Assembly: GCA_003278345.1 (NCBI GenBank)
Contig: QCFH01000009.1
Location: 1 to 57,431 of the forward strand
Length of the DNA: 57,431 nt
Direction: 5' to 3'
Origin: Prochlorococcus sp. AG-363-C02
GTDB lineage: Bacteria > Cyanobacteriota > Cyanobacteriia > PCC-6307 > Cyanobiaceae
Shown here: piece by piece, positions 24,802-28,769 of the stretch
Numbering within the stretch: position 1 is the stretch's first letter
Layout of the letters: every line of letters starts with the position of its first letter
Position numbers and translations under genes: made by a program
The notes under the pieces: generated by a model
Told to the model about the DNA's origin: nothing
Seen by the model: the letters and a program-made list of their open reading frames with translations, nothing else
The model's database searches: none

Positions 24802-26457
24802 GTGAACCTAATTCATGGTCTTCACCTTAAAAACGTTAGAGGTGATGTATTAGGGGGTCTTACAGCTGCAGTTGTTGCATTACCTTTAGCACTAGCCTTT
24901 GGTAATGCAGCTCTTGGCCCTGGAGGGGCAATATATGGACTTTACGGGGCAGTTGTTGTTGGATTTCTTGCTGCCTTGTTTGGAGGAACTCCTGCACAAG
25001 TAAGTGGTCCCACAGGACCAATGAGCGTAACAGTTGCTGGAGTTGTAGCAAGCCTTGCAGCTGTAGGAGTTCCAAGAGATCTTTCTGCAGAGCAAATTTT
25101 GCCCCTTGTAATGGCTGCTGTGGTTATAGGAGGCTTATTTCAAGTCTTATTTGGAATCTTAAAGCTTGGGAAATATATAACACTTGTCCCTTACTCAGTC
25201 GTATCAGGCTTTATGTCTGGTATTGGTGTAATTATAATCGCCCTTCAAATTGGACCTCTTTTAGGAATTAGTACAAGAGGTGGTGTAATTGAATCTCTAT
25301 CTACGGTTTTCAATAATTTTCAACCCAATGGAGCAGCTATAGCAGTAGCCATAATGACTCTTGCCATAGTTTTTCTAACTCCCAGAAAAATAAGTCAATG
25401 GATTCCTTCTCCACTCTTGGCTTTATTAATAGTTACACCTCTTTCAATTGTTCTTTTTGGTGGCAATGCTGTAGATCGAATAGGTGAAATACCAAGAGGA
25501 GTACCATCACTTAGTATTCCTAGTTTCAATCAATACTTACCAATTATTCTTAAAGCAGGTCTTGTTCTTGCAGTATTAGGAGCAATTGATTCCTTACTTA
25601 CTTCACTTGTTGCAGACAATATTTCGCAAACAAGACATAACTCTGACAGAGAATTGATTGGTCAAGGAATCGGGAATGCTATTGCGGGCTTATTCTCTGG
25701 CCTCCCAGGCGCTGGGGCAACAATGAGAACAGTTATAAACGTCAAATCAGGAGGTGCGACTCCATTATCTGGGATGGTTCATTCAATCGTCCTATTAATA
25801 GTTTTAGTTGGTGCAGGTCCTCTTGCAGAGCAAATACCAACAGCCCTTCTAGCAGGAATTCTTATAAAAGTTGGTTTAGACATTATTGATTGGGGGTTCC
25901 TACTCCGGGCTCATAAACTTTCTCTTAAAACTGCCAGTGTGATGTATGGCGTTTTATTAATGACTGTTTTCTGGGATTTAATCTGGGCAGTATTAGTTGG
26001 TGTGTTTATAGCAAATATGCTCACAATAGATTCAATCACGCAAACACAATTAGAAGGAATGGAAGCTGATAACCCCATTCAATCAGGTGATGAAGATCTA
26101 CCATCTTTACCTTTAGAGGAAAAAGATTTGCTTAGTAATTGCTCTGGAGAAGTAATGCTATTCAGACTAAAAGGTCCACTTAGTTTTGGAGCAGCAAAAG
26201 GAATAACTGAAAGAATGATGCTTGTAAGAAATTACAAGGTTTTAATCTTGGATATAACAGATGTCCCAAGGCTAGGGGTAACTGCAACCCTAGCAATAGA
26301 AGATATGATTCAAGAGGCAAGAATCAATTCAAGAAAAGCTTATGTTGCAGGTGCAACTGGCAAAGTTAAAGAGAGACTATCTAAATTTGGAGTCTCAGGA
26401 TTAATAGACACTAGGAAACAAGCATTAGAAATAGCACTAAATGAAATAAAAGACTGA
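24802..26457 (+). CDS. bicA: SulP-family transporter, BicA-like bicarbonate/anion transporter with STAS domain
   Basis: 551 residues. N-terminal transport domain with 10-12 hydrophobic segments. Conserved SulP blocks are visible: GDVLGGLTAAVVALPLALAF, FGGTPAQVSGPTGPM, SGFMSGIGVI and GQGIGNAIAGLFSGLPGAGA. The cytoplasmic STAS domain occupies about 450-551 (VMLFRLKGPLSFGAAKG and ILDITDVPRLGVTATLA). It resembles Synechococcus BicA over the whole length, so low-affinity Na+-dependent bicarbonate uptake is the favoured function; sulfate cannot be ruled out. GTG start with GGAG 9 nt upstream. It is first in a likely bicA-sbtA-sbtB operon. Confidence 0.85.
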   Translation: MNLIHGLHLKNVRGDVLGGLTAAVVALPLALAFGNAALGPGGAIYGLYGAVVVGFLAALFGGTPAQVSGPTGPMSVTVAGVVASLAAVGVPRDLSAEQILPLVMAAVVIGGLFQVLFGILKLGKYITLVPYSVVSGFMSGIGVIIIALQIGPLLGISTRGGVIESLSTVFNNFQPNGAAIAVAIMTLAIVFLTPRKISQWIPSPLLALLIVTPLSIVLFGGNAVDRIGEIPRGVPSLSIPSFNQYLPIILKAGLVLAVLGAIDSLLTSLVADNISQTRHNSDRELIGQGIGNAIAGLFSGLPGAGATMRTVINVKSGGATPLSGMVHSIVLLIVLVGAGPLAEQIPTALLAGILIKVGLDIIDWGFLLRAHKLSLKTASVMYGVLLMTVFWDLIWAVLVGVFIANMLTIDSITQTQLEGMEADNPIQSGDEDLPSLPLEEKDLLSNCSGEVMLFRLKGPLSFGAAKGITERMMLVRNYKVLILDITDVPRLGVTATLAIEDMIQEARINSRKAYVAGATGKVKERLSKFGVSGLIDTRKQALEIALNEIKD

Positions 26458-26522: not shown

Positions 26523-27518
26523 ATGGAGACCAATCTTGTACTTCAAAATGTTTTAACTCCACCGGTACTTTTCTTCTTTCTTGGAATTATTGCTGTAGTT
26601 GCTCGATCTGATCTTGAAATTCCTGCTCCTTTACCTAAATTATTTTCTTTATACCTGTTATTGGCGATTGGCTTTAAAGGTGGATTAGAACTTGAAAAAA
26701 GTGGACTTGGTGGGCAAGTCCTTCCAACTGTTTTGGCTGCTATAGCCATGTCATTATTTATACCTCTAGTATGTTTTTTAATCTTACGTTTAAAACTTGA
26801 TGTTTTTAATTCCGCAGCAATTGCGGCAGCGTATGGATCAATAAGTGCAGTTACATTTATTACAGCTGAAAGCTTTCTAGCAAGCCTAGAAATTCCATTT
26901 GATGGTTTCATGGTTGCGGCTTTAGCCTTAATGGAATCCCCTGCAATAATTGTTGGTCTATTGCTAGTAAAATTAGGAGCTCCAAAAAATCGTCCTAATG
27001 GTAGAGAAATGAAATGGGGATCAATTCTTCATGAATCAATGCTTAATGGATCAGTTTATTTGCTTTTAGGAAGTCTTTTGATCGGATTCTTAACTGCTGC
27101 TAATAATCCTATTGGCATAGAAAAAATGAATCCTTTTACAGATAAATTATTCTATGGAGCCGAATGCTTTTTTCTATTAGATATGGGAATAGTGGCAGCG
27201 CAGCGACTCCCTGGACTTAAAAAAGCAGGTTCATTTTTAATTATGTTCGCAATTTTTATTCCTTTGCTAAATGCATTAATTGGAATTTTTATAGCGAAGT
27301 TATTATCACTTGAACCAGGTAACGCATTATTATTTGCAGTTCTTTGTGCTAGTGCCTCATATCTTGCTGTACCAGCTGCAATGCGCATGACAGTACCAGA
27401 AGCAAAAGCAAGTTATTACATTTCAACTACTCTTGGACTAACATTTCCTTTTAACATTGTTATAGGGATACCGCTCTATATGAGTTTAGTAAACAAAATC
27501 ATCCCTTCTATTGGATAA
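26523..27518 (+). CDS. sbtA: SbtA-type sodium-dependent bicarbonate transporter
   Basis: 331 residues with about ten hydrophobic helices arranged as two inverted halves. Segments resembling SbtA are the early IPAPLPKLFSLYLLLAIGFKGG, then ITAESFLASL, ALALMESPAIIVGLLLV and the repeat-like SASYLAVPAAMRMTVPEA. It is shorter than Synechocystis SbtA (374): the hydrophilic loop between the halves is only about 20 residues (APKNRPNGREMKWG). High-affinity bicarbonate uptake at the cell membrane is expected from family and context. The adjacent sbtB, 4 nt downstream, strongly supports the call. Confidence 0.87.
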   Translation: METNLVLQNVLTPPVLFFFLGIIAVVARSDLEIPAPLPKLFSLYLLLAIGFKGGLELEKSGLGGQVLPTVLAAIAMSLFIPLVCFLILRLKLDVFNSAAIAAAYGSISAVTFITAESFLASLEIPFDGFMVAALALMESPAIIVGLLLVKLGAPKNRPNGREMKWGSILHESMLNGSVYLLLGSLLIGFLTAANNPIGIEKMNPFTDKLFYGAECFFLLDMGIVAAQRLPGLKKAGSFLIMFAIFIPLLNALIGIFIAKLLSLEPGNALLFAVLCASASYLAVPAAMRMTVPEAKASYYISTTLGLTFPFNIVIGIPLYMSLVNKIIPSIG

Positions 27519-27522
27519 ATAA

Positions 27523-27804
27523 ATGAAACGCTTAGATCTAATTTTTAGTGAAAGAGAACTCGATGCAATTCTTGAAGCTCTTGAATCTGCCGACGTACCC
27601 GGTTACACGGTTATGAAACATGCAACTGGTAAAGGACCTCAAACAATTTGTTCAGAAGATATGGAGTTCACTGGCCTTGGGACTAATGCTCATGTAATAG
27701 TTTTTTGTGAGCTTGAAATGATAGAAAAAATCAGAGCCAACGTAAGATCTATTCTTAATTACTATGGTGGAGTCGCTTATATATCAGAAGCAATTGAAAT
27801 GTAA
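27523..27804 (+). CDS. sbtB: SbtB, PII-like regulator of SbtA
   Basis: 93 residues, PII-like ferredoxin fold. Shared with known SbtB proteins: the GYTVM segment (about 27-31) then the GKG motif, and the late NYYGGVAYISEA. SbtB trimers bind adenine nucleotides (cAMP, AMP, ADP, ATP) and cap SbtA. The protein ends immediately after the last strand, so the C-terminal redox loop with two cysteines (CGPEGC in Synechocystis) is missing. Starts 4 nt after sbtA, hence co-translated. Confidence 0.87.
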   Translation: MKRLDLIFSERELDAILEALESADVPGYTVMKHATGKGPQTICSEDMEFTGLGTNAHVIVFCELEMIEKIRANVRSILNYYGGVAYISEAIEM

Positions 27805-27812
27805 AAAACAGT

Positions 27813-28769
27813 TTAAGAATGTACCCAATCCACTCTAATTGATTTACGGCTATTTAAATATCGATCTATAGCCATAGCTGCAATACAACCATCTGAAGCA
27901 GCAACTACAGCCTGTTTAAAAGGTGTATTTCTAATATCTCCTATAGCCCAAACCCCCTCGGAAGTAGTCGACATGAAGTCATCAACTACCACACCTCCAT
28001 CATCTTTAAATGCAATCTGATCTCCCAAAAAATCTGTTATAGGCTTTGAACCACTCATATATACAAATACTCCATCTACAGATAAAAACTGATTATCTTC
28101 TTGAGACCGATTTTTAATATGGACTCCAGTAACACCTCCTTCATTTCCTTCGATTTTCATTAATCTTGTCTTGCTCCAATGTTTTACATTAGATTCTCGC
28201 AATAAAGCCTGAGCATGCACATCGTCTTCTTTGGGATCATTAGAAGTAAGCCAATGAACAGTTGATGCAAACTTTGTAAGGACTTGCGCTTCTTCTACAG
28301 CCTCTTTATTGACTCCAACTACAGCAACTTCACGTCCTTTATAAAAAGCTCCATCACAAGTAGCACAATAACTAACTCCTCGACCCAAAAAATCAGCCTC
28401 TCCCTTAAAAGAAGCTGGTCTACCCATTGCTCCACTCGCAACAACTAATGCACGTCCTTTAAAAGTACCCTCAGGTGTAAAAACTGTTTTCCATTCTCCT
28501 GTTATATCTACTCCAAAAACTTGAGCCCTTCGATAATCTGTTCCATACTGAATAGCTTGGTCTCTCATTAATTTCAATAAATGCTCACCACTAATATCTG
28601 TAGGCACCCCTGGATAATTAGCAATTTGATGAGTGATAGCTAAAGCACCAACAGAAGGGTTCTTGTCTAAAATCACTGTCTTTAGATTGGCCCGTGAAGC
28701 ATAAAGAGCACAGCTACAACCTGCGGGTCCTCCTCCAACTATCACCACATCAGTTTCTACGGTTTCCAA
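27813..28769 (-). CDS. Flavin thioredoxin reductase of ferredoxin-dependent type (FFTR-like)
   Basis: 318 residues. FAD-binding VGGGPAGCSCALYA (about 11-24) and the redox CATC (135-138) define a thioredoxin reductase. The NADPH domain is abnormal: the usual GGGDSAxEEA reads GVNKEAVEEA (152-161), and the HRRxxxR 2'-phosphate motif is missing (VHWLTSNDP follows). That pattern matches the pyridine-nucleotide-independent FFTR described in Gloeobacter and Prochlorococcus, where ferredoxin is the donor. TTG start at 28769 with GGAG 7 nt upstream. A TrxB call would be misleading. Convergent with sbtB, 8-nt gap. Confidence 0.82.
   Translation of the reverse strand: METVETDVVIVGGGPAGCSCALYASRANLKTVILDKNPSVGALAITHQIANYPGVPTDISGEHLLKLMRDQAIQYGTDYRRAQVFGVDITGEWKTVFTPEGTFKGRALVVASGAMGRPASFKGEADFLGRGVSYCATCDGAFYKGREVAVVGVNKEAVEEAQVLTKFASTVHWLTSNDPKEDDVHAQALLRESNVKHWSKTRLMKIEGNEGGVTGVHIKNRSQEDNQFLSVDGVFVYMSGSKPITDFLGDQIAFKDDGGVVVDDFMSTTSEGVWAIGDIRNTPFKQAVVAASDGCIAAMAIDRYLNSRKSIRVDWVHS

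Follow-up and report, generated by a model that had tools for sequence, protein, structure and literature searches.

In Synechocystis the T-loop of the PII-like protein SbtB inserts into the cleft of SbtA, a transporter of the Sbt_1 family in which docked bicarbonate contacts S114, Y140, S324 and S327 (PMC8352866). R43 and R46 of Synechocystis-type SbtB are reported to coordinate the ATP phosphates, and alanine mutants to lose apyrase activity (PMC10117731). The CGPxGC R-loop is described in about half of 460 SbtBs; the SbtB of Cyanobium PCC 7001 is naturally without it, and SbtB without an R-loop is said to respond mainly to energy state (PMC10991534), as far as the accessible parts of these last two papers go. 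A second pair, SbtA2-SbtB2, has already been named (PMC13249358, citing Rourke 2026a and Selim & Alva 2024). The available part of that review reports that SbtA2, in general, interacts with SbtB2 and that the SbtA2 of marine Synechococcus transports inorganic carbon in a chloride-dependent manner, and calls the mechanism of the pair still to be elucidated. The names SbtA2 and SbtB2, and the absence of the R-loop from half of SbtBs, are therefore in print. The literature reached by our search, which missed Rourke 2026a and 2026b, Selim & Alva 2024 and Wheatley 2016, holds no statement on the RxxR arginines or C62 in SbtB2, nor on a kinship of SbtB2 with CPII. The string 'SbtB2' in the part of PMC12313861 available to us apparently consists of citation superscripts and is not a protein name.

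The sbtA2-sbtB2 locus

The window, by which we mean the whole stretch of 57,431 nucleotides analysed here, comes from Prochlorococcus sp. AG-363-C02 and carries the following genes of interest.

24802..26457, plus strand: bicA2-like SulP transporter gene, upstream of sbtA2 (PF00916 and STAS; first GTG taken as start)
26523..27518, plus strand: sbtA2, 331-residue homologue of Sbt_1 transporters, short class (PF05982 at 9.8e-120, length class, SbtA2-type site residues)
27523..27804, plus strand: sbtB2, 93-residue PII-like protein without a C-terminal R-loop (open reading frame, PF00543, SbtB2 clade, AlphaFold2 model)
27813-28769, minus strand: thioredoxin-reductase-like gene, convergent, 8 nt past sbtB2 (TIGR01292 at 295.5 bits, cut-off 343)

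The sbtB2 frame opens with ATG at 27523, only 4 nt after the end of its SbtA2-class neighbour, and closes after 93 codons with TAA at 27802-27804. A profile search matches the product to PF00543 at 2.6e-11, so that a chance match is no concern for the family assignment, and the AlphaFold2 model has a PII-like fold (mean pLDDT 87.5). In the window genome, which is 77% complete, sbtB2 is the sole match to the SbtB protein and sbtA2 the sole Sbt_1 gene found. The bicA2-like gene, a conserved neighbour of sbtA2-sbtB2 across the loci compared, encodes a SulP-STAS product scoring 597 bits against the NCBIfam BicA model, below its cut-off of 880, as would fit a BicA2.

The C-terminal residues of the protein are YYGGVAYISEAIEM, and translation of the frame, together with a scan of the last 20 residues that found neither CGPxGC nor C....C, bears out the original prediction that it ends at AYISEAIEM without the redox loop. 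A hidden extension downstream of 27804 had been named as the outcome that would overturn this; translation of all three plus-strand frames to 27960 found no CGPxGC-type motif past the stop. The window's family was searched for relatives in 300 genomes; 215 gave a match (the 85 without one include incomplete genomes), and 83 SbtB2 proteins were fetched. The alignment, a check that had been proposed for marine SbtB proteins, places the end of 81 of these 83 in the same column, the other two being one residue longer, with no R-loop in any of them. Named relatives are 93 residues long in 79/80 cases and 94 in the remaining one; the closest are Prochlorococcus, AG-436-K22 being 96% identical. Two of the weakest family matches, in genomes G112 and G231, are probably GlnB, because only one strong PII was found in each genome.

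A degenerate or mis-sequenced gene could also account for a short C-terminus, and at one locus of the SbtA2 class, L189, no neighbouring SbtB was found. The uniform lengths and motif-free downstream frames lead us to reject a frame error hiding an extension, and the dN/dS of 0.041-0.078 in six of seven comparisons (dS being saturated in the seventh) indicates strong purifying selection on sbtB2. On sequence grounds truncation or frame error is thus unlikely, and these counts refute the idea of a degenerate gene, to which we attach almost no probability.

The R-loop is confined to one branch of SbtB1

The original prediction measured the protein against Synechocystis-type SbtB (SbtB1), taking its redox control to be probably lost. 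This comparison does not hold, since that protein is not the ortholog of the window gene, which encodes the SbtB2 that goes with SbtA2. In a main tree of 94 rows (20 SbtB1, 72 SbtB2), calculated with the R-loop columns excluded, SbtB1 and SbtB2 form separate branches (support 98/86 and 95/86). GlnB/PII, which has the fold in common with SbtB2, is a distant branch in the trees, and the root is only as reliable as this distant outgroup. The window protein falls in the SbtB2 clade in both trees calculated, and scores 164.8 bits with an SbtB2 model that includes it, versus 19.0 bits with the SbtB1 model. Its membership of SbtB1 was rejected on branch, on score and on the missing R43xxR46 pair. The first SbtB1 list had been built with a pattern containing R43; possible circularity was checked by a motif-free search, which recovered 36/36 proteins and no extras.

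CGPxGC is present in 18/36 SbtB1, and hence is not required for membership of that group, and in 0/113 SbtB2 (0/83 from the window's family, 0/30 from other cyanobacteria). The R-loop rows of the main tree (8/20 SbtB1) form a single branch nested within SbtB1 (97/95; 100/96 in the second tree). As the tree is rooted here, the R-loop was therefore gained inside SbtB1 and is derived in a single branch of that group.

It is very improbable, in our estimation, that the window protein is a Synechocystis-type SbtB whose redox loop was lost in marine lineages. The protein is PII-like and adjoins an SbtA homologue, and in a single-sequence search its nearest solved chains are those of SbtB1 (E 0.013-0.037), all of which agrees with such a loss. 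However, the loop is missing from 12/20 SbtB1 and 72/72 SbtB2 rows, and within the window's family SbtB1 and SbtB2 types coexist in some genomes. The loss reading needs several independent losses, and a single gain in SbtB1 is by far the more economical account; most simply, the lineage of the window protein would never have had an R-loop. Of the original claim this leaves the part that concerns function, in that a protein without an R-loop has no R-loop redox switch, and takes away the word 'lost'. To call marine SbtB2 an SbtB with lost redox control would be misleading.

Thirteen of the 30 SbtB2 from other cyanobacteria (L121, L123, L125, L127, L129, L130, L132, L134, L135, L142, L146, L147 and L148) end in a 7-9-residue tail that contains a single cysteine (RSVKCVASL and LITRCVG types), and another cysteine in the last strand (GGTCY type). 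These tails are possibly of independent origin.

Arginines, cysteines and the T-loop

SbtB1, as known from Synechocystis slr1513 and Cyanobium PCC 7001 SbtB, has the PII-like fold of SbtB2 (Z about 11-12), and both have GYTV and GKG motifs and are partners of an Sbt_1 transporter. SbtB2 differs in its shorter termini and separate branch, in the absence of both R-loop and R43xxR46, and in C62, which replaces a threonine. The residues concerned were placed by alignment (all on the plus strand).

27628..27687: T-loop region, residues 36-55, GKGPQTICSEDMEFTGLGTN, aligned to SbtB1 and PII
27640..27642: Q40, in the alignment column of R43 in Synechocystis SbtB
27649..27651: C43, in the T-loop, aligned with R46 of Synechocystis SbtB
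27706..27708: C62, cysteine near-invariant in SbtB2, where the third strand ends
27766..27771: G82-G83, invariant in 113/113 SbtB2

G82-G83 aligns with the side of the nucleotide cleft that we take to be formed by the B-loop. T-loop residues 41-50 are modelled with low confidence (mean pLDDT 58). The arginine pair is found in 36/36 SbtB1 and 0/113 SbtB2, its place being taken in the window protein by Q40 and C43; an arginine at position 43 is kept in 24 of the 30 SbtB2 from other cyanobacteria. With R43xxR46 missing, apyrase activity of the SbtB1 type would not be expected in SbtB2, and its mode of ATP/ADP handling would have to differ. These residues make results on SbtB1 (apyrase, R-loop, RxxR) non-transferable to SbtA2-SbtB2. 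The window protein is an ordinary SbtB2 in kind, whose residue differences are testable.

Redox sensing might reach SbtB2 by another route, through C62 and, in the window's clade, C43. These are the two cysteines of the window protein. C62 is present in 109/113 SbtB2 (81/83 in the window's family, 28/30 elsewhere) and in 0/36 SbtB1, which have threonine in 36/36, and the thioredoxin-reductase-like gene adjoins sbtB2 in 74/74 named loci with room. The product of the latter, with its CATC motif and a tryptophan near the C-terminus, fits FFTR, given as the sole thioredoxin reductase of Prochlorococcus in the accessible parts of PMC9025218 and PMC12796991. Yet 59/83 proteins have a single cysteine, which precludes an intramolecular disulfide in these, and the reductase gene is convergent with sbtB2 and hence not co-transcribed with it. 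C43, for its part, is confined to the window protein and four close relatives among the 83. We regard cysteine-based redox sensing as improbable.

The SbtA2 partner

A search with PF05982 gave a match in 72 of 194 cyanobacterial genomes, and both kinds of Sbt_1 gene were fetched with their neighbours: a short class of ~325-335 residues, which includes the window gene, and a long class of ~370-410 residues scoring ~300 bits. Some cyanobacterial genomes contain both. At loci with room, sbtB2 lies directly 3' of sbtA2 in 78/79 of the unnamed-family set, 78/78 of the named set and 27/27 from other cyanobacteria, counts in which the first two sets share part of their genomes and the loci were mostly gathered via the SbtB2 match. 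The other cyanobacteria are represented by the 30 best Sbt_1 scores, and 28 of these 30 loci contain a PII-like gene of the window's type. Published SbtB2 and SbtB-like proteins are likewise PII-like and coupled to SbtA2, and we saw no difference between published SbtB2 and the window protein, set side by side by review description and not by sequence.

Among 47 loci first sorted as long class, 36 have a canonical SbtB1 within the stretch. L189 (genome G075), one of the 11 without, has a short-class Sbt_1 gene and was probably sorted wrongly, because it scores 371 bits and, among the 47 rows, is most likely the only one to carry SbtA2 residues. At two other loci, L126 and L141, sbtA2 is followed by a tandem pair of PII-like genes of the window's type.

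Of the four bicarbonate contacts of Synechocystis SbtA, S114 and S324 are kept in SbtA2, with Y140 replaced by leucine and S327 by alanine in 110/110, the window protein matching the rest; 46/47 long-class rows have tyrosine and serine at these two places. The accessible part of PMC4275256 reports no transport by Prochlorococcus MED4 SbtA in one expression system, so that in Prochlorococcus the target of SbtB2 may lack bicarbonate transport activity.

Relation to CPII

CPII of Thiomonas intermedia is the best profile and fold match of SbtB2. The SbtB2 profile finds it first in the PDB (3.5e-10, vs 6.4e-8 for SbtB), a fold search with the sbtB2 model places it at Z 14.1 over 93 residues and 1.7 Å (best SbtB 12.3), and Foldseek agrees (9.4e-8 vs 1.0e-6). 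Four CPII-type rows score 28-46 bits with three SbtB2 models and 7-21 with three SbtB1 models. CPII also has no RxxR, with histidine at the R43 place, and the CPII relatives examined are without CGPxGC, like SbtB2. PDB entries 5d4l/n/o/p, 5drk and 5ds7 give bound ADP, AMP and bicarbonate in their titles; since CPII was crystallised with ADP and AMP without these arginines, it is plausible, by analogy and as the original prediction allowed, that SbtB2 still binds adenylate.

These similarities raise the possibility that SbtB2 is a CPII-like PII responsive to both adenylate and bicarbonate, reading inorganic carbon directly and not only the energy state. However, the branch uniting SbtB2 with CPII has a support of only 95/76, and AU tests favour neither alternative over the other (p 0.497 with SbtB1 and SbtB2 held together, 0.488 with SbtB1 and CPII held together), so a firm CPII-SbtB2 clade is not claimed. 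Structural identity of the sbtB2 model is 18% to CPII against 26-31% to SbtB, and the CPII relatives found adjoin genes for DUF2309 and a proton-conducting transporter, not Sbt_1, whereas SbtB2 adjoins sbtA2. We consider direct sensing of bicarbonate unlikely, if worth keeping in view, and a little less likely a fuller version in which SbtB2 would be no duplicate of SbtB but a line of inorganic-carbon sensors of its own, CPII-like, gating BicA2-SbtA2 uptake in Prochlorococcus via bicarbonate and adenylate charge, with C62 as a family-specific element of the ligand pocket. CPII is nonetheless a second model against which to set SbtB2.

The CPII relatives of Nitrobacter lie near Rubisco and CsoS2. 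On a plasmid of Nitrobacter hamburgensis (L271) the block of CPII, DUF2309 and proton-conducting transporter genes occurs twice in tandem, adjoining Rubisco and CsoS2.

Putative mechanism and nucleotide signals

The reading we favour, and hold to be probable, is that sbtB2 encodes a PII-like regulator of SbtA2 that acts like an R-loop-free SbtB1, adenine nucleotide setting the plugging by the T-loop. The sbtB2 gene shares a same-strand cluster with the genes for SbtA2 and the BicA2-like SulP transporter; by analogy with SbtB1, its product would be a trimer with adenine nucleotide in the inter-subunit cleft. The kind or charge of the nucleotide would decide whether the T-loop folds, and the T-loop would accordingly plug the cytoplasmic side of SbtA2 or leave the transporter free. 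BicA2 is perhaps also a target; SbtB1 is reported to contact BicA in Synechocystis in the available part of PMC13249358.

As for the signal, a search for cyclases of classes I and III found the class III domain (PF00211) in 3/18 Prochlorococcus-like genomes with SbtB2, the window's own included, and class I in 0/18, and the c-di-AMP synthase (DAC) domain is present in 32/32 genomes searched, the same 18 among them. Adenylate charge or c-di-AMP would thus be a likelier signal than cAMP, because cyclases of these two classes are mostly absent and DAC is found throughout. The rarity of cyclase domains disfavours cAMP as a general ligand of SbtB2, although another class of cyclase could rescue it. 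The class III domain of the window genome, absent from three near-complete genomes of its genus, lies at G000:C23:13595-14131.
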